The notes beneath the pieces were generated by a model. It had not been told where the DNA came from. It made no database searches and was given only the letters and a program-made list of their open reading frames with translations. Positions 4,477 through 16,904 of a DNA stretch of 36,115 nucleotides are shown piece after piece (positions within the stretch are counted from its first letter, which is position 1; each line of letters begins with the position of its first letter). Made by a program: the position numbers and the translations under genes. Source of the DNA: a virus. The stretch spans positions 1-36,115 of the IMG/VR virus record IMGVR_UViG_3300017703_000546; one strand, written 5' to 3'.

Positions 4477-4731
4477 CTATCGGCCGAGGTCGGCGACGAG
4501 CTTGCCGCGACGCCACCAGCTGTTGAGGTTGCTGCCCTCGGGGTAGGGGTTCGTCTGGGCCTTGCCGGTCGCGCGCTCTCGGAGGGCGGCGTGGCGACCC
4601 TCGGCGAGCGCGTCGGAGACGGCGCGGCGGCGAGCGATGGAGGCGATGGGGTTGTCGCCCGCGTCCTCGGGGCAGGGCACGTGCGCGTCGAGGTCCTCGA
4701 AGCGGTCGTTGCAGTAGGGGCAGCGGGTCAT
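4477..4731 (-). CDS. Small zinc-finger protein
   Basis: An 84-residue protein with an N-terminal CPYC-x(9)-DAHVPC motif (residues 4-20), a likely zinc finger of C2HC/C2H2 type. The rest is charged and ends in a basic segment near NSWWRRGKLVADLG. ATG 4731 has AGGAG eight to nine bases upstream. Its leader shares 20 identical bases with that of the next gene upstream (4736-4755 and 5191-5210). It belongs to a run of small uncharacterised genes between the large terminase and the portal. A regulatory nucleic-acid-binding role is a guess. Confidence 0.7.
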   Translation of the reverse strand: MTRCPYCNDRFEDLDAHVPCPEDAGDNPIASIARRRAVSDALAEGRHAALRERATGKAQTNPYPEGSNLNSWWRRGKLVADLGR

Positions 4732-4809: not shown

Positions 4810-5187
4810 TCAGGCTCGGGCGGCGGCGCGGGCATCGTGGCGGGCGTGCGCTTCGACGAAGCTGGGGGTGGTCGCCCAGCGACCGCGCTCGAAGCCGCGC
4901 TCGTACCAGCGCCGGAGGAAGCCCCAGCCCTCGAAGGCGTGGTCGAGGCCGGCGACACCGAAGCGGCCGAGGTAGGGGTTGGTGCTCCAGTACCGGCGGC
5001 CGAGGAAGTCGGCCGGCAGGCGACGAGCCGAGCCCGAGACGACCGCGTCACCGCGGCGGTGGCTCTCGCCGATGGTGCGGTCATACTCGCGCCCAGCCTC
5101 GAAGCCGAGCATGTAGGCGTGCTCATGGACGGCGCGCCGGAGGCGCTTCAGGTCGGCGACGGTCAGGGAGGTGAGCTGGGAGGACAT
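4810..5187 (-). CDS. Hypothetical protein (125 aa)
   Basis: Not recognised. The 125-residue product is rich in Arg, Trp, Tyr and Phe. It has a helical N-terminus (LTVADLKRLRRAVHEHAYML) and a repeated pattern of aromatic/arginine pairs (GFEAGREYDR, GFLRRWYERGFERGRW), so it may bind nucleic acid. Start ATG 5187 has AGGAG at normal spacing in a leader shared with the downstream gene. It sits in the small-gene cluster downstream of the large terminase. Nothing suggests membrane insertion. Confidence 0.75.
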   Translation of the reverse strand: MSSQLTSLTVADLKRLRRAVHEHAYMLGFEAGREYDRTIGESHRRGDAVVSGSARRLPADFLGRRYWSTNPYLGRFGVAGLDHAFEGWGFLRRWYERGFERGRWATTPSFVEAHARHDARAAARA

Positions 5188-6076: not shown

Positions 6077-7606
6077 CTACGCCAAGGATCCTTGCCCGCG
6101 CTTGAGCCGGAACACGACGTAGCGAAGGGCGTCCAGCGCGTGGTCGTCGCGCTTGAGCGGCTCGTCCTTGGGGTCGGCCTTCGACCCTCGGGTGGTCTTC
6201 CAGACGTAGCCCTCGAACTCGCCGACGAGCCTCGGGCAGGAGTCGTGCACGACGAGATGGGCGCGCCCCTCGACGTCGGGCGCGAGGCGCTCGGCGACCG
6301 AGTTGAGACCCGGCCGGACGTCGTTGCGCCCCTTGACCGTCTGGAGGTCGTGCTCGCGGGCGAGGGTCAGCCGTTCGGACTTGGCTGCGGGGTCGCCTAC
6401 GCGCCACTCAGGCAGCGGCTCTCGCCGACCTCGACCGAGGCAGCCCGGGCAGACCCGTAGACCATCTACGCGGTCGCAGAAACCCGCGGCGACTACTTCC
6501 GGGTCGTCCGGGTAGAGCCAGCTGTCGTCGACGTCCACAGACGGCTGTACAGGCTCGCCGAGACAGGTCTCGCAGGCCTCCAGCTCGTGGACCCGCTCGG
6601 CGTGCTGCTTCACGGTCCAGCCGGCCTTGTAGTGCTCGCGGTAGACGTGGAGGACGTCATCGCTCGGGTCGAGGGCGCACCAGACGACCGCGGTCGGGTT
6701 GCGCGTCCCGAAGTCCCAGCCCTGGAAGCGCTGCCAGTCCTCGGGCGGGTCGAAGGCCTCGACGACGTGGAGGTGCCGGTAGAACTCGAAGACGCGCCCC
6801 TCCAGCGCGGTGAACTCGCCGCGCTCGCGAGCGGCTCTCTCGTGCGGCCCGTACTGCGCCAGCAGGCGTTCGAGGTAGTCCTGCGGGACGTGCGGGTTGT
6901 CCCGGCTGTTGAGCGCGTAGCTCGCTGAGCCGTCCTCGGGCTCCTCGACGAACCGCCGGTAGACCCACGTCTTGCCCTTGAGCGGGGTCATCGTGAAGAC
7001 CGCGAGGCCTGCGCGGTCGGCGAGGCGCATCCGACCTTCGTTGAAGACTGGTTCGTCGTGCTCCTCGTCGAGCCACAGCATGTCCCAGTCAGCGCCCTGG
7101 AACGCGCGCTCTCGCTGGTCGTTCGACTTGAAGAGGATGACCCCACCGTTGGGCAGGCGCACGCTCGCCTCGCCGTGCCCGTGGCGGTTCGACCACCTCG
7201 ACCCGGCCGGCAGGTAGGCCTCGACCTTCGGCCGCTGGATGCGGATGCTCTCATTGCCGGTGAGCGCCGAGCAGCAGACGACGCCCGGACCCGGTTGGAC
7301 GCGGTCGATGGGGATGCCGTTGACGCGCGACCACAGCTGGACCGCCGGGTGGTCCGAGCCGAGGGCGACGGCGACGACGAGCTGCGCGCCGGCCTCGGTC
7401 TTGCCCGAGCGGTTGCCGCCGAGGAGGACGAACACCAGCAGGTCGGGCGTCCCGAGGAGGCGCCGCATCGCCTCGCGCTGCGAGGTCCGCTCGGGCGTCC
7501 AGCCCTTCGGCTGCCACAGACGAGCTACCGCGAGGGGGTTCGCCGCGAGGAAGCCCTTGAGCCGGTGCGCGGCTGCGTAGGCCTCGGCGCGCGGGTCCGC
7601 GCTCAC
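6077..7606 (-). CDS. terL: Terminase large subunit
   Basis: A 509-residue packaging ATPase and nuclease. Walker A is GGNRSGKT (63-70) and Walker B is MLWLDEEH (176-183). The nuclease domain has FQGWDFGTRNP (Asp298), GDPAA (Asp405) and DDHALDALRY (Asp492). Between nuclease strands a segment contains CETC (345-348) and CPGC (386-389), a likely zinc-binding insertion that most terminases lack. Start GTG 7606 overlaps the preceding stop (GTGA). It translocates DNA into the prohead at the portal. It is separated from terS by six genes, including a glycosyltransferase, which is unusual. Confidence 0.95.
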   Translation of the reverse strand: MSADPRAEAYAAAHRLKGFLAANPLAVARLWQPKGWTPERTSQREAMRRLLGTPDLLVFVLLGGNRSGKTEAGAQLVVAVALGSDHPAVQLWSRVNGIPIDRVQPGPGVVCCSALTGNESIRIQRPKVEAYLPAGSRWSNRHGHGEASVRLPNGGVILFKSNDQRERAFQGADWDMLWLDEEHDEPVFNEGRMRLADRAGLAVFTMTPLKGKTWVYRRFVEEPEDGSASYALNSRDNPHVPQDYLERLLAQYGPHERAARERGEFTALEGRVFEFYRHLHVVEAFDPPEDWQRFQGWDFGTRNPTAVVWCALDPSDDVLHVYREHYKAGWTVKQHAERVHELEACETCLGEPVQPSVDVDDSWLYPDDPEVVAAGFCDRVDGLRVCPGCLGRGRREPLPEWRVGDPAAKSERLTLAREHDLQTVKGRNDVRPGLNSVAERLAPDVEGRAHLVVHDSCPRLVGEFEGYVWKTTRGSKADPKDEPLKRDDHALDALRYVVFRLKRGQGSLA

Positions 7607-7782
7607 CCCTTGAGCCCCTCGCTGTACCCGTTGCGCCACGCCTGCGCCTGCCGTTCGACGTAGACCGAGGGGACCGGTGCCTGTCGCGAGATGAGGCGCG
7701 AGCAGCGGCCGGCCTTCACGCCGTGCCGGTAGGCTTCGAGGTAGCTGTCGTGCCGACGGGGCACCGGGTGGTCGCGGCTCAT
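7603..7782 (-). CDS. Small basic protein (59 aa)
   Basis: Not recognised. A 59-residue basic protein with a Tyr/Arg-rich pattern (SYLEAYRHGVKAGRCSRLI, then AWRNGYSEGLKG). The two AY/GY-containing helices look like an internal repeat. ATG 7782 overlaps the preceding stop (ATGA) and its own stop overlaps the terL start (GTGA), so translation is probably coupled to terL. No role can be assigned. Confidence 0.7.
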   Translation of the reverse strand: MSRDHPVPRRHDSYLEAYRHGVKAGRCSRLISRQAPVPSVYVERQAQAWRNGYSEGLKG

Positions 7783-7979
7783 AGGTCCCACTCGCAGCAG
7801 GCGCGCCACAGCGCTTCATCGAGGTCCTCGCCGAGCGCGAACGCGCGCCGCACGACGTCCTCGACCTCCATGCGTAGCAGCTCGTCATCCCACAGAAAGT
7901 CGTGCAGTCGCAGCGCGTCGCGCATCGTGAACGGGCCGATGAAGGGCTCGGTGGCCCACAGCTCGGGGTCAGCGCTCAC
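7779..7979 (-). CDS. Small acidic protein (66 aa)
   Basis: Not recognised. GTG 7979 starts a 66-residue acidic protein rich in Glu, Asp, Trp and Leu (LRLHDFLWDDELLRMEVEDVV, then DEALWRACCEWDL). It overlaps the end of the glycosyltransferase gene by 11 bases and the next gene by 4, a coupled arrangement. Its acidity and position suggest a partner of the modification or packaging enzymes, but this is only inference from context. Confidence 0.68.
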   Translation of the reverse strand: MSADPELWATEPFIGPFTMRDALRLHDFLWDDELLRMEVEDVVRRAFALGEDLDEALWRACCEWDL

Positions 7980-8847
7980 GGCGGTGCTCCTCGCGGAGGA
8001 TGCACGGGGCGGTCCTCGGCCAGTCGATGGCGTGGTGAATGCGGTAGTGCGCCACGCCCTTCTCGGCGCCGCCCTTCCTGCCGGGGTCGCCAAGCTCGCC
8101 GATGCGCGCCGCCGAGGGCGCGTAGAGGACGGTGTAGAAGCTCTTCACGTAGGTGCCGGCGTCGAGGTAGAGGTCGGTCATCCCGCCCGCGTTCGCCTGC
8201 GTGGGCTTCTGGTTGAGCTGGGCCTGCATCACGGTGAGGAAGAGCTTCCCGCGGCGCCCCTCCGAGACGTAGGTGTTGACGTCTTCGTTGACCCGGCCGA
8301 CGAAGTCGAAGGGCCGCTCGACATCGCACACGAAACTGTTCATCGCCTTGCGCTTGAGCCGGATGTCGGGAGGGGCGCCGCCGATGTGGTCGCCGCCCTG
8401 CGATATCGCGACCGTGGCCGCTTGGGTCTCGTCGAGGAAGTCGACGAGCGCCTCGAAGAGGTCGTTGAGCGTCGACCGGATGCGGTAGGAGCCCCACATG
8501 CCGGCGGTGTCGAAGCGGTAGAAGAAGCTCGTGTAGTCGTCATCGAGCTGGATGAAGTAGCGGGCGCCGACCTGCCGAGCGAGGTCCCAGCAGGCGTTGC
8601 GGGCGTAGAAGATGGCGCGCCGGTCGTCGAAGTTGTCCGCCTCATCGAAGCGCGCGGCGATGTTAGCCTTGGAGAAGACGAGCACCTCGGCGCCGAAGGT
8701 CGCGTGGTAGTGCTCGGCGCTCTCGTCCTCGTCGTCGATGACGACGTAGATGCGGCCCGTGTAGCCGGACCGGCGCAGCTCGTCGTAGGTGTGGACCCGG
8801 TCTGCTCGACCGTGCGAGAGGATGAAGGCGACGAAGTCGTCACGCAC
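7969..8847 (-). CDS. Putative TET-associated-type glycosyltransferase (GT-A, TAGT-like)
   Basis: A 292-residue protein resembling phage TET/JBP-associated glycosyltransferases, which transfer sugars onto hydroxymethylated pyrimidines in DNA. Visible features: N-terminal VAFILSHGRADRV and a Rossmann-like GRIYVVIDDEDE; YARNACWDLA (81-90); the GT-A metal-binding motif ARYFIQLDDDY (95-105); FVGRVNEDVNTYV (182-194); and C-terminal GGMTDLYLDAGTYVKSFY followed by YRIHHAIDW. GTG 8847 overlaps the ParB-like gene by eight bases. I see no TET dioxygenase, hydroxymethylase or DNA methyltransferase in this genome, so the acceptor base is unknown. Family identity is from remembered motifs, not a search. 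Confidence 0.78.
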   Translation of the reverse strand: MRDDFVAFILSHGRADRVHTYDELRRSGYTGRIYVVIDDEDESAEHYHATFGAEVLVFSKANIAARFDEADNFDDRRAIFYARNACWDLARQVGARYFIQLDDDYTSFFYRFDTAGMWGSYRIRSTLNDLFEALVDFLDETQAATVAISQGGDHIGGAPPDIRLKRKAMNSFVCDVERPFDFVGRVNEDVNTYVSEGRRGKLFLTVMQAQLNQKPTQANAGGMTDLYLDAGTYVKSFYTVLYAPSAARIGELGDPGRKGGAEKGVAHYRIHHAIDWPRTAPCILREEHRRER

Positions 8848-9640
8848 GGCTGACCTCGTCGTCGGCGAGCGCGCCGAGGCGCGAGGAGAGCTTCACGAAG
8901 CCGGCCTCGATGGCGGCGTCGAAGTCGATGATGACGAGCCCGGAAGCCTCCATTAGGCGCTGCACCTCGGGCTCGGCGTGGCAGTAGAACTCGGCGATGC
9001 GTCGGAAGTGGAACCGCGTGTGCCGGTCGGCCGCTTCGAGCAGGAAGGTGGTGAGGTCGGGCGGCAGGTCGGCCTCGACGATGTCCGCCCGTAGCTCGGC
9101 GCTCTTCGTGATGTCGAAGAGGTCGGACGGCTCGGGGCACTCGCCCTTCGGTTCGTAGACCGGCGCCTTGACCTTGCGGCTGTAGGGGTCCTCGCCGCTG
9201 CCCGAGCCCGAGCCCGGTCCGCCGGTCCCCTCGAAGAGCGCGGCGGCCTCATCAGCCGACCACAGCTCGGCGTCGAAGCCATCCTCGCCCCAGCCGTCGA
9301 GGGCGGCGCGTAGGTTGTCGGTGTTCCACTCGCCCAGCTCCGACGTCCGGTTGAGCCGGACTGCGAGCCGGCGCCGCTCCTCGTCGTCGCAGTCAACCAC
9401 AGCCACGTCGGCCTCGACCATCCCGAGGGCGGCCATGCACAGCGCGGTCGCGTTGCCAGCGATGATGACGCCCGTCGACGCCTGCACGACGAGCGGGGCG
9501 ACCTGCCCGTGCGCGGCGAGGCTCGCTCGGATGGCGCGCAGGTTGCGGTCGGGGTGGCTCTTCGGGTTGTCGGGGTCCTGCTTGAGGTCGTGTAGGGCTC
9601 GGCGTTCGTAGGTCGCTCGCTCGGCGAGGTCGGGGGTCAC
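8840..9640 (-). CDS. ParB/Srx-fold domain protein
   Basis: A 266-residue protein whose N-terminal half matches the ParB-like nuclease domain: HDLKQDPDNPKSHPDRNLRAI (17-37), LAAHGQVAPLVV (41-52), the core VIIAGNATALCMAALG (58-73), then DVAVVDCDDEERRRLAVRLNR. A Gly/Ser-rich linker separates a C-terminal domain (about 160-266) that I do not recognise. Start GTG 9640 overlaps the preceding stop. ParB/Srx domains in phages often lie beside DNA-modification genes; next to the glycosyltransferase, a role in modification is more likely than plasmid partition. No ParA partner is present. Confidence 0.82.
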   Translation of the reverse strand: MTPDLAERATYERRALHDLKQDPDNPKSHPDRNLRAIRASLAAHGQVAPLVVQASTGVIIAGNATALCMAALGMVEADVAVVDCDDEERRRLAVRLNRTSELGEWNTDNLRAALDGWGEDGFDAELWSADEAAALFEGTGGPGSGSGSGEDPYSRKVKAPVYEPKGECPEPSDLFDITKSAELRADIVEADLPPDLTTFLLEAADRHTRFHFRRIAEFYCHAEPEVQRLMEASGLVIIDFDAAIEAGFVKLSSRLGALADDEVSRA

Positions 9641-10023
9641 TCTTCGGTCTCCTCGGCGGCGATGCACGCCGCGCAGATGGCTCGGCGCTTCGTGCGCGGT
9701 CCTCGGTCGAGGCGGCGCTGACGCCAGCCCCACTTGCCCTTGAGTATCGGCACGCGGGTCTCGCAGTCGTAGCAGCGGACCATCCTGCGCCAGCGACGGT
9801 CAGCCCTTCCTCGATGCCGGTCCGAGTGCGAGAGCGCGACCGGCGACCTCGGCTTGGGGACGAGGAAACGGCGGCAGGCGTGCCCAACCGGGGTGCCCTG
9901 CTCGTGCTCCTCGCAGGTCAGACCGCAAACGCAGACGTCGAGGGGCGAGGGCTTCCCGCACAGCGCGCCGGCCCGAGCGTCGCACGTCGGGCAGTCGTGG
10001 TCGATGACCGGGCGCTCACTCAC
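9637..10023 (-). CDS. Multi-zinc-finger protein (128 aa)
   Basis: Contains several cysteine pairs: CPTC (11-14) with C22, then CVCGLTC and a distal H/C (about 31-50) and, near the C-terminus, CYDC (84-87) with CAAC (117-120). The first module, CPTCDARAGALCGKP, resembles small phage zinc-binding domains common in actinophages. The middle is strongly basic. Start GTG 10023 overlaps the preceding stop (GTGA). DNA or RNA binding is likely. Between terS and the ParB-like gene, it may help packaging or DNA modification, but no direct evidence shows this. Confidence 0.75.
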   Translation of the reverse strand: MSERPVIDHDCPTCDARAGALCGKPSPLDVCVCGLTCEEHEQGTPVGHACRRFLVPKPRSPVALSHSDRHRGRADRRWRRMVRCYDCETRVPILKGKWGWRQRRLDRGPRTKRRAICAACIAAEETEE

Positions 10024-10418
10024 AGCGAGAGCACGAGCTGCGAAGGCGGGGTGCCAGCGGGGCAGCGCCGCCGGAGGTGCCACGCGATGCCATGCACGAC
10101 CTTCGGCTGGCCTCGCCGCCGCGGGTCCAGTCCGGTGCCGGCCGAGACCTGCGCGATGACGTTCGCAACGAGCGGTTCCCACCCGTCGCCGAGGAGGACC
10201 ACCAGCTGGTCGACGGCGCCGGGCTGGAGGCTGATGACCTGCCACAGCCCCTCGCAGTCTGCGGGCGGCGGCGGGATGTCGATGCGGTTGGCGTTCTGGA
10301 CTTCCTCGGTCATGGCGAGTCTCCGAGCGTGGAAGGGGTGGCGGCCGAGTGACTTCGGGTCGCACGGCTCGCCGGGTACGGCGTAGCAGGTCGGGCAAGG
10401 GACGAGGTCGGGAGTCAC
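10020..10418 (-). CDS. Zinc-finger protein (132 aa)
   Basis: Residues 8-30 read CPTCYAVPGEPCDPKSLGRHPFH, a CxxC-x(7)-C...H arrangement typical of small phage zinc-finger proteins. The remainder (about 40-132) contains hydrophobic helices (GAVDQLVVLLGDGWEPLVANVIAQ) and a basic C-terminus (AWHLRRRC). Start GTG 10418 overlaps the terS stop (GTGA). It is translationally coupled to the small terminase and followed by another zinc protein. Function unknown; a nucleic-acid-binding accessory is the simplest reading. Confidence 0.75.
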   Translation of the reverse strand: MTPDLVPCPTCYAVPGEPCDPKSLGRHPFHARRLAMTEEVQNANRIDIPPPPADCEGLWQVISLQPGAVDQLVVLLGDGWEPLVANVIAQVSAGTGLDPRRRGQPKVVHGIAWHLRRRCPAGTPPSQLVLSL

Positions 10419-10900
10419 GCGACCTCCTCGAAGGCGACGTCGATGATGCCCTCGGCGTCGAGCCCGAGCATGCCGGCGACCTCGGGCAAGACCTCCAGCA
10501 CGGCTCGGGCGTCGGCGAGCGGGTCCGCCTCGGCGACGCTCACGCGGACGTCGATGGGACCCTTGAGCCCGAGCAGGTTCGCTTCGAGGTCGAGCAGCCG
10601 GTAGGCGACGCGCACCATCGAGGCGTCGCCCGCGGTCAGCCCTCGCGCCGCGCTCGCGGTCCGGAGGGCGCGCACCTCTTCGAGCAGGCGAGCGGCCTCG
10701 GCCTGCCGGTCGGCCTTTCCGAGGTTTTCCGACCACAGCTTGCGGACCTTCGCAGCGTCGTGCTGAACCTGCCGGCGCTGCACGTTCCACTTCTCGGCGA
10801 GCCGGCGCTGCACCTTCCCCGTCCAGACGCCCGTGCGTAGCTGGGCCTCGACCTCGTCGAGGCGCTCACGCACGTCGTCGTCGCTGCTCTTGCGTCCCAC
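10415..10900 (-). CDS. Putative terminase small subunit
   Basis: A 161-residue protein beginning with an HTH-like segment (about 5-55; QLRTGVWTGKVQRRLAEKWN, then VQRRQVQHDAAKVRKLW), followed by a long helix rich in Ala/Glu/Arg and LEANLLGLKGPIDVRV (about 105-121). That last motif is common in phage small terminases and related DNA-binding proteins. It should recognise phage DNA for packaging. Start GTG 10900 has AGGAG nine bases upstream. It opens the packaging operon behind a good promoter at 10951-10979. Another HTH function cannot be excluded. Confidence 0.7.
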   Translation of the reverse strand: MGRKSSDDDVRERLDEVEAQLRTGVWTGKVQRRLAEKWNVQRRQVQHDAAKVRKLWSENLGKADRQAEAARLLEEVRALRTASAARGLTAGDASMVRVAYRLLDLEANLLGLKGPIDVRVSVAEADPLADARAVLEVLPEVAGMLGLDAEGIIDVAFEEVA

Positions 10901-14367: not shown

Positions 14368-15435
14368 TCAGCCTCGCTGGCCGACGTAGTAAAGCGAGCG
14401 GCTCGGCCGACCTCGCCAGTCCTTGTCGACTCGGCTCTCGACCTCGTCGCCCCAGCAGACCTGCCAGTGGTCGCAGTAGGTGCACTGCCAGGGGAGCTTG
14501 CCCGAGCGGCCCTTCGGCTCGCCCTTCGTGTAGGTCGTGCCGTTCTTGCGGGTGCCCGAGCGCCGGTAGACCTCCTGCTCGGCGGGCTCCAGCAGGGTGC
14601 CGTCGCCGAGCATCCGGGGGGCGTGCTCGGGCGCGCCGCCGAAGAGGACGCGCGTCAGGTGGTCGGACAGCAGGTCGTCGAAGTGCGGGTCTGGGACCTC
14701 CCACCAGCTCGTGATGGCGCCCGAGTCCTTCCCGAGGAGGACGACCCCGAGGGCCGGTACGCCGAGGGCGCGCAGGTAGCCCTGCCCCTGCCACCAGTAG
14801 GTCTCGCTCGGACCCCACGGCGACCGTCCGGCGCGCAGCGCCTCGACAGCCTTGTCGTAGCCGTAGCTCGACGTGCTCTTGACCTCGACCAAGAGCGCGA
14901 CCTCGGTCGGGTACGACGTGCCGTCGTCGCAGGCTCGCGAGAAGGGCACGACGATGAACCCGTCAGGGTGGCCGACGACCTCGACCGGCATACGGAGGCC
15001 GGGGAGGTGGTGCCGGAGGACGGCGACGCCCTGCCCGGTCTCCTGCCGGAGGCCGCCGAGCCGAGCGCCCTCGGGACCGAGGCCCATCGAGAGCGCGTCG
15101 GCGAGCGCGGCGAGCACGAGCGACTCGGCGGTGTCGCCCATCGCGAAGGTGACCTTGGCGCGGGCGTCGATGGTCCGGCCCTTGCCGGCGACGCCCGCGA
15201 GGCGGTAGGCGAGCGAGCGAGCGCACTTGCCGAGGTTCGACATGCGGAGCGCCTTGTAGCCGCCCGGCGCCGAGTCGGGTCGGGTCAGCTGCCGGACGAT
15301 GGGCATCCCGAGGCGGGTCGCCACGTCCTCCTCGGTCTCGCCGAGGAAGCGCTGGGGGGCCTCCAGCCGCTCGGCGATGAGCCCGGCGAGGTCGGGCAGC
15401 TCGAAGCCCTCGGGCAGGGTCGCGACGGGGGTCAT
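14368..15435 (-). CDS. Cas4/RecB-like PD-(D/E)XK exonuclease with Fe-S cysteines
   Basis: A 355-residue nuclease. Catalytic motifs: GHPDGF (Asp158), LLVEVKS (Glu184, Lys186) and YWWQGQGYL (Gln216). Four cysteines lie in the Cas4/AddB pattern: C71 (GKCARSL) and C318, C321, C327 (CTYCDHWQVC), which should hold a 4Fe-4S cluster. Such enzymes resect DNA ends to give single strands for an annealing protein. The SSB and ERF genes just upstream support this. ATG 15435 overlaps the preceding stop (ATGA). No Cas1/Cas2 or CRISPR array is present, so this is a phage recombination nuclease. Confidence 0.85.
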   Translation of the reverse strand: MTPVATLPEGFELPDLAGLIAERLEAPQRFLGETEEDVATRLGMPIVRQLTRPDSAPGGYKALRMSNLGKCARSLAYRLAGVAGKGRTIDARAKVTFAMGDTAESLVLAALADALSMGLGPEGARLGGLRQETGQGVAVLRHHLPGLRMPVEVVGHPDGFIVVPFSRACDDGTSYPTEVALLVEVKSTSSYGYDKAVEALRAGRSPWGPSETYWWQGQGYLRALGVPALGVVLLGKDSGAITSWWEVPDPHFDDLLSDHLTRVLFGGAPEHAPRMLGDGTLLEPAEQEVYRRSGTRKNGTTYTKGEPKGRSGKLPWQCTYCDHWQVCWGDEVESRVDKDWRGRPSRSLYYVGQRG

Positions 15436-15731: not shown

Positions 15732-16175
15732 TCAGAACTGGATGTCGTTGGGGTCCGCCGAGCCGCCGCGGTAGCCGCCGCCCTGCTGCTGCTGGGGCTG
15801 CTGCCGGCTGACCGGACGGGTCCGCGTCGAGCCGCCCTCGGCGCCGCCCTCGCGACCGCCGAGGAACTTGACCTCGTGCGCGACGACCTCGGTGGACCAG
15901 CGGTCCCGGCCTTCCTTGTCCTGCCACTTCCGGGTCTGGAGGCGGCCTTCGACGTAGAGCTGCTTGCCCTTCTGGCAGTACTTCTGGACCGCCTCGGCGG
16001 TCTTGCCGAAGCAGACCACCGAGTGCCACTCGGTCTCGTCGTTCCAGTTGCCGTCGCGGTCCTTCGCCCGGCGCGAGGTCGCGAGCCGGAGGTTGGCGAC
16101 GACCGTGCCGCTGCCGGCGGTCCGAGCCTCGGGGTCTGCCCCGAGGTTGCCGATGAGGGTGACCTTGTTGACCAT
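15732..16175 (-). CDS. ssb: Single-stranded DNA-binding protein
   Basis: A 147-residue bacterial-type SSB. The OB fold (about 1-107) begins VNKVTLIGNLGADPEARTAG and includes WHSVVCFGKTAEAVQKYCQKG, LYVEGRLQTRKWQDKEGR and TEVVAHEVKFLG. A Gly/Gln/Arg-rich linker follows. The acidic tip ends DPNDIQF, close to the DDIPF tip that recruits replication and repair proteins. ATG 16175 has GACAGGAG at proper spacing. It covers single strands made by the nuclease and during replication, and lies directly after the ERF gene. Confidence 0.96.
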   Translation of the reverse strand: MVNKVTLIGNLGADPEARTAGSGTVVANLRLATSRRAKDRDGNWNDETEWHSVVCFGKTAEAVQKYCQKGKQLYVEGRLQTRKWQDKEGRDRWSTEVVAHEVKFLGGREGGAEGGSTRTRPVSRQQPQQQQGGGYRGGSADPNDIQF

Positions 16176-16220
16176 GGTGGTGCTCCTGTCGGTGCCGCCC
16201 TTCGGCGGCGGGTGGTTGGT

Positions 16221-16904
16221 TCAGCCTGCCGAGCCGGGCTCGGGCTGGTAGAGGTCGGAGTGCTTGCCGGCGATGAGGTCGCGGACGAAGGACGAGCGAC
16301 CGGCGCGCGTCCACGTCGAGGGCTTGCCCTGCTGGGTCCCGAGCCCCCACGCCTTGACGGCGTCGTAGTCGAGCCCGAACTCGCGCAGCTTGGCGCAGAA
16401 CCGCACGCGGTCCTCGTCCCACTCGGGGTCGTGCGCCGCCTCCGCGGGCGACTCCTGCGCGGCACTCGACTGGCGGTCCGGGTCGTCGCCGGTCTCGATG
16501 CAGAAGGTCTGCCGGAGGGCGTACTTGTAGGCGTTCGTCATCGCCTTCGACACGACCTTGTCGCCCGTGTCGACCCCGCAGCCGGCGACCGTCACGGAGA
16601 AGGTCGAGCCGTCTCGGTGCGCGAAGACGTACTCGACGAGGACCTCGGCCCGAAACTGCCGCGCGCCCTTGCGGGTCGGGGCGTGCTCGACGACCTCGGA
16701 GGAGAGGACCCGAGGCGCCGGACCGATGACGCCAGCCTGCACCATCGCGGGCCGGAGGGCACGGATGAGGTCGGCCTCGCCCGCGTAGGTGTACCGGTCG
16801 CCGAAGGTCGTCTGCCCCGACTTGTAGACGTAGCCGACGCGCGCCATCACGTCGGCGAGAGCGCCATAGATGCCGCAGCTCTCGATGGCGTCGAGGTCAG
16901 CCAC
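16221..16904 (-). CDS. ERF-family single-strand annealing protein
   Basis: A 227-residue recombinase. The ERF hallmark GDKVVSKAMTNAYKYALRQT, ending FCIETGDDPD, is at 114-143, preceded by YTYAGEADLIRALRPAM (39-54). The protein should form rings on single-stranded DNA and anneal homologous strands. The C-terminal part (about 155-227) is variable and may contact SSB. Start GTG 16904 overlaps the preceding gene by eight bases. With SSB and the Cas4-like exonuclease it makes a recombination module. It can also circularise terminally redundant DNA. Confidence 0.92.
   Translation of the reverse strand: MADLDAIESCGIYGALADVMARVGYVYKSGQTTFGDRYTYAGEADLIRALRPAMVQAGVIGPAPRVLSSEVVEHAPTRKGARQFRAEVLVEYVFAHRDGSTFSVTVAGCGVDTGDKVVSKAMTNAYKYALRQTFCIETGDDPDRQSSAAQESPAEAAHDPEWDEDRVRFCAKLREFGLDYDAVKAWGLGTQQGKPSTWTRAGRSSFVRDLIAGKHSDLYQPEPGSAG

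Follow-up and report, generated by a model that had tools for sequence, protein, structure and literature searches.

The window, by which we mean the whole 36,115-bp stretch of phage DNA analysed here (GC 70.5%), carries an identical 123-bp repeat at both ends, which suggests that it is a complete circularised phage genome and thus makes gene absences in it meaningful. All genes around the TAGT locus lie on the minus strand, where the start of a predicted glycosyltransferase gene and the gene for a ParB-like protein overlap by 8 bp (Table 1). An original prediction, made from the letters alone, had described this overlapping pair as lying inside the terminase operon between terS and terL, with two zinc-finger genes upstream and two tiny genes downstream, and the layout is largely borne out. 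TerL is clear and both tiny ORFs are present, terS is a plausible candidate for which family searches of Pfam and PHROGs returned no significant match, and one of the two zinc-finger genes exceeds the PF24623 cut-off while the other falls under it. An Rfam search around the locus gave no match. Elsewhere in the window, a recombination module with a Cas4-like exonuclease, an SSB and an Erf-type annealing protein lies upstream (14368-15435 and 15732-16904), and two small proteins (4477-4731 and 4810-5187) show RMF-like features by eye.

Table 1. Predicted genes and domains at the TAGT locus, with window coordinates and the basis of each assignment.
Feature	Coordinates	Strand	Basis
TAGT-family GT-A glycosyltransferase, 292 aa	7969-8847	-	PF20691; phrog_842; AlphaFold2 and Foldseek; conserved residues
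266-aa protein with a ParB/Srx fold and, at its C-terminal end, the partner domain	8840-9640	-	phrog_620; Foldseek match to ParB/Noc
N-terminal ParB/Srx domain, residues ~1-140	9220-9640	-	Foldseek; motif scan
Partner domain, residues ~150-266	8840-9193	-	Alignment; pairing with the TAGT clade
Terminase large subunit (TerL), 3' of the module	6077-7606	-	PF03237, E 4e-17; phrog_2, E 6e-33
Candidate terS, outside the module	10415-10900	-	Position and sequence character only
Phage zinc-binding protein, neighbour	10020-10418	-	PF24623, E 2e-7, over cut-off
Second zinc-ribbon-like protein, neighbour	9637-10020	-	PF24623, E 0.002, under cut-off
Small ORF, 65 aa	7779-7976	-	No match
Small ORF, 60 aa, weakly RMF-like	7603-7785	-	PF04957, E 1.8e-4, under cut-off

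Profile and model evidence agree that the product of the downstream gene of the pair is a GT-A glycosyltransferase of the Pfam family TAGT. It matches PF20691 over profile positions 4 to 204/205 (E 4.7e-37, ~128-129 bits against a cut-off of 27.5) and phrog_842 with an E-value of 6e-72, and the LDDDY and TYVKSFY motifs by which it had been recognised in the original prediction are present and near-invariant among its relatives. The metal motif DDD (D102-D104) is invariant in all 93 glycosyltransferase sequences compared, as is the C-terminal HH (271-272) in a 40-row alignment. A sequence search against the PDB gave no match. The GT-A fold was upheld by a confident AlphaFold2 model (pLDDT 89.3, pTM 0.88), for which the best Foldseek matches in the PDB are GT-A enzymes (E ~2e-5). 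The TAGT family is said to have been introduced by Iyer et al. in NAR in 2013.

The protein encoded upstream consists of two domains. Its N-terminal part goes undetected as ParB in a Pfam search, yet the protein matches phrog_620 (E 1e-32), its N-terminal part also resembles ParB-methyltransferases (PHROGs; PADLOC MTase_II, E 1e-14), and Foldseek ranks ParB/Noc first (E 1e-6 to 1e-4), followed by sulfiredoxin (TMt 0.75, E 0.0045), so that sequence and model together assign this domain to the ParB/Srx superfamily as originally proposed. The nucleotide-binding motif in the window is GNAT rather than the usual GHxR; among the scanned relatives 93 carry GHxR, nine carry GNxT and 58 do not match the pattern. 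The PDB fold matches fall mostly over this N-terminal part, and the C-terminal end is occupied by a second domain of ~115 aa that the original prediction had missed and that is the constant companion of the TAGT enzyme, termed here the partner domain.

Neither Pfam nor NCBIfam gives a match to the partner domain, and PHROGs treats it merely as the tail of a ParB family. In alignment it shows the motif YSRKVKAPVYEPKG, followed by a helical domain with RH, AEFY, LME and LVIIDF. The domain opens with a conserved YTxKIxxPxYEPxG; the beginning of this segment is modelled at low confidence before the confident helical part, and a conserved, apparently disordered segment of this kind would fit the expectation for a docking motif. 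When the ParB-partner model was searched by fold against a viral library, the matches were ParB-named proteins that do not hint at the function of the partner domain. We found no description of the partner, or of a linkage between ParB, TAGT and terminase, in the freely readable literature. The partner domain is predicted to be an essential subunit of the glycosyltransferase.

The evidence for an enzyme-partner module comes from searches in both directions, each scan covering the best 80 loci and its counts not being exhaustive. Starting from the enzyme, the partner gene lies immediately upstream in 80 of the best 80 viral loci; starting from the partner profile, all of the best 80 viral loci contain the enzyme, directly downstream in 79 and 3.2 kb away in the one exception (L134). 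The same holds for bacterial genomes, where 47 of 48 loci have the partner and the remaining one (L208) has a ParB ORF with the partner undetected, and for a phage collection in which all 28 records with the partner by tblastn also carry a TAGT. Clustered at 80% identity, the enzymes form 141 clusters, of which 129 have an adjacent partner; the others consist mainly of second copies from tandem arrays, of phage LL-Ku and of three loci whose partner is far away or went undetected. Most exceptions to the pairing are extra tandem copies or broken genes. In LL-Ku and Ld17 the partner is absent and the enzyme has internal deletions and replaced HH residues, as if the enzyme decayed once its partner was gone.

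In pairwise comparisons of 71 non-redundant loci, the identity of the enzymes rises with that of the partners (rho 0.46, a descriptive value that ignores phylogeny) and hardly with that of the ParB domain (rho 0.10, likewise ignoring phylogeny) or of TerL (rho 0.10, phylogeny ignored and TerL identities near noise). The partner tracks the enzyme and the ParB part evolves separately. The N-terminal extension before the partner match is also shorter than 60 residues in 21 of 215 partner proteins, those cut by contig edges being left out; stand-alone partner genes of 109-157 aa make up the majority, and four are longer proteins in which the partner match starts atypically. Up to about 10% of loci therefore lack the ParB part, which makes it optional where the partner is constant. 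Taken together, the two-component module is real and widespread and its pairing strongly supported. The enzyme had originally been called an orphan, a description that stands insofar as no known acceptor-making enzyme accompanies it and fails insofar as it is one half of a near-obligate pair.

The module also keeps a fixed position. TerL lies downstream in 75 loci, at a median distance of 455 bp, and never upstream; by a narrow TerL profile it falls within 4 kb in 41 of the 76 loci whose downstream sequence reaches 4 kb or more. In 60 pairs of loci the enzymes are more than 58% identical and the TerLs less than 25% identical. The module is missing from Klebsiella phages whose terminase DNA is ~75% identical to that of the E. 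coli phages; it is therefore an optional cassette at a fixed position and is not required by the packaging motor. The original idea that adjacency to the terminases points to modification at packaging survives in this form: the position is conserved, and that makes late modification near packaging plausible. A general rule that this slot always holds some modification enzyme was rejected, because the related Klebsiella phages have short ORFs only. Beyond TerS and TerL, a survey of neighbouring ORFs of at least 70 aa, a limit under which the two tiny downstream genes fall, found no third gene that widely accompanies the pair; the zinc-finger genes do not recur beside it and were rejected as parts of the module.

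The pair occurs in viruses or prophages of E. coli, Lactobacillus, Nocardia, Bacteroides and Haloarcula, and a plasmid search gave no match. In E. coli its two genes are ynaK and the gene that follows it in Rac-type prophages, homologous to the ParB-partner and TAGT genes of the window. Among 5,426 complete genomes of this species, 867 (~16%) contain 80% or more of the enzyme gene and 887 contain 80% or more of the pair, in both cases under redundant sampling. The enzyme gene is usually annotated as a hypothetical protein, and in some RefSeq genomes copies are named 'GREB1-related protein', GREB1 being related to the base-J glucosyltransferase. The K-12 MG1655 Rac prophage differs in that ynaK is an 87-codon ParB stub directly followed by ydaY (L231:3878-4141); judged from the sequence, it looks like the remnant of a deletion that took the partner, the TAGT, the terminases and Rac head genes.

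As known so far, phage DNA glycosylation relies on a hydroxyl handle made beforehand, and we know of no TAGT that acts on unmodified bases. The original prediction had noted that no TET/JBP dioxygenase, other hydroxymethyl source or DNA methyltransferase was visible, and profile searches of the window agree: Tet_JBP, Thymidylat_synt, DNA_methylase and N6_N4_Mtase all went undetected. Across whole viral records, some of which may be fragments and several of which are deposited as complete at 31-65 kb, Tet_JBP was found in none of 51 (window included), with a model that does detect the TET/JBP protein of Mycobacterium phage Nigel. Thymidylat_synt matched one of the 51, a 191-kb Vibrio phage, C5 DNA methylases three of 51, and N6/N4 methyltransferases six of 50, four of them above cut-off. 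The near absence of known acceptor sources means that the Pfam label 'TET-associated' and the PHROG label 'beta-glucosyl-HMC-alpha-glucosyltransferase' overreach for this clade. The suggestion that the host supplies the substrate fares poorly as a general answer, since the hosts of the pair span bacteria and an archaeon.

Several known systems share parts of this architecture. The TAGT of phages T2 and T6, a beta-glucosyl-HMC-alpha-glucosyltransferase, modifies DNA (PMC13216743). Like the present enzyme it is phage-encoded, has a GT-A fold and belongs to PF20691 (39 bits for T6 against 129 for the window), whereas T6 has a dCMP hydroxymethylase gene next door and lacks the partner domain. A direct profile comparison of the clade with the T6 TAGT found no detectable similarity, so the link is the shared Pfam profile and inference of the substrate from T6 is weak. 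The same 2026 paper reports solitary TAGTs of unknown function in 288 of 753 phage genomes, which likewise lack an alpha-GT or beta-GT (PMC13216743); our clade probably overlaps this set, and the passages covered mention neither the partner domain nor ParB. Base-modifying enzymes with ParB-like associates are known from deazaguanine insertion, where the ParB-like protein DpdB drives DpdA to insert the base (PMC12839542; also PMC6392294), although DpdA is a transglycosylase and not a glycosyltransferase, and from the cytosine carboxymethylase CmoX, which has ParBc gene neighbours (PMC12783734). In ParB-fused phage methyltransferases (phrog_498, PADLOC MTase_II), the N-terminal ParB is homologous to that of the module and a methyltransferase domain replaces partner and TAGT. 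Phage Nigel has a ParB (phrog_6392), a TET/JBP protein with HRD...H...R, a P-loop kinase and a terminase in the same slot (L221:1-4129). There, too, a ParB gene overlaps a base-modifying enzyme immediately upstream of the terminase, but the enzyme is a TET/JBP dioxygenase and both TAGT and partner domain are absent. The PHROGs label 'queuine tRNA-ribosyltransferase' for this dioxygenase is contradicted by its HxD...H...R motif and Pfam match.

The recurrence of ParB domains with DNA-modifying enzymes and the action of the T2/T6 TAGTs on DNA make DNA the probable target of the module by analogy. Our preferred reading, held with modest confidence, is a two-component DNA glycosyltransferase in which the partner is an obligate subunit, ParB is the DNA-targeting domain, and phage DNA is decorated late in infection. 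The TAGT would require the partner domain supplied by the preceding, translationally overlapping gene, and the ParB/Srx domain, fused to the partner in most phages, would load the complex onto DNA. A nucleotide sugar would then donate its sugar to phage DNA bases, late and on concatemers near packaging, and this may protect that DNA in the next host. A phage-encoded hydroxymethyl source was not found, and for that reason the complex may glycosylate a group already on ordinary DNA or make its own acceptor. The more specific version, in which the sugar is put directly on canonical bases or on a self-prepared acceptor without a separate hydroxymethylation or oxidation enzyme, with radical SAM or methyltransferase tailoring in some lineages, is tentative and on balance unlikely. 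Against the DNA model count the missing direct similarity to the T6 TAGT and the fact that no TAGT is known to act on unmodified bases; in addition, at the loci that lack a ParB domain DNA targeting is unexplained, and the ParB of the window, as read from its sequence, is without the canonical GHxR.

We weighed this model against three others. That the ParB gene and the enzyme have nothing to do with each other and simply travel together because of their place beside the terminases is very improbable; hitchhiking is conceivable given the conserved operon position, but the pairing is near-complete across unrelated terminases, enzyme and partner diverge together, and stand-alone partner genes still adjoin the enzyme. 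A two-step modification is a better-founded but still unlikely account, in which a hydroxylated base is first made by the host or by a phage enzyme that went unrecognised, the TAGT then glycosylates this base, and the partner serves only as an adaptor. The biochemically known TAGT acceptors, those of T2/T6, are indeed already modified bases (PMC13216743), and in ~14 lineages the very next gene after the enzyme is a radical SAM gene. Against a hidden first step stand the lack of thymidylate-synthase-type and TET/JBP enzymes in nearly all records, the failure to see any broadly kept third gene other than those for TerS and TerL, and a range of hosts that makes common host supply improbable.

Equally doubtful is glycosylation of a protein, with the partner itself, the terminase, the capsid or a host factor as acceptor and the partner as substrate or recruiter. 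The nearest PDB folds include enzymes that glycosylate proteins and peptides, such as ColGalT1, GalNAc-T2, SunS and glycogenin, but these matches do not discriminate because the GT-A fold is common to all substrate classes. An enzyme and its substrate can form obligate neighbour pairs, and SPASM radical SAM neighbours are frequently peptide-acting; on the other side, the partner is mostly fused to a ParB domain characteristic of DNA-modification loci, and loci with similar enzymes have unrelated terminases. A widespread pair without a visible handle-maker suggests either that the acceptor chemistry is new or that ParB/Srx proteins have a role not seen before. With so many complete E. coli genomes carrying the pair, the question can be answered using prophages of common E. 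coli strains; the modification, if it exists, would have consequences for restriction, for nanopore sequencing and for work with phages.

Some lineages carry additional genes at the locus. The radical SAM genes directly after TAGT in ~14 lineages fall into two subfamilies, one with SPASM, and in L026 the TAGT and a class I methyltransferase domain form a single fused protein. Loci with radical SAM or methyltransferase additions are L026 (7404-8393 and 5668-7431), L044, L049, L057, L091, L185, L187, L195, L198, L200, L201, L202, L204 and L206. Second or tandem TAGTs occur at L038, L121, L183, L191, L195, L201, L202 and L218, with two to three genes mostly behind one partner, and perhaps build a disaccharide or serve two acceptors. 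These radical SAM, methyltransferase and tandem additions suggest that some phages tailor the sugar or make disaccharides. Finally, in the genome record of locus L032 (G003, 32725-37988), two TAGTs lie near an ORF for a 663-aa N6/N4 methyltransferase.
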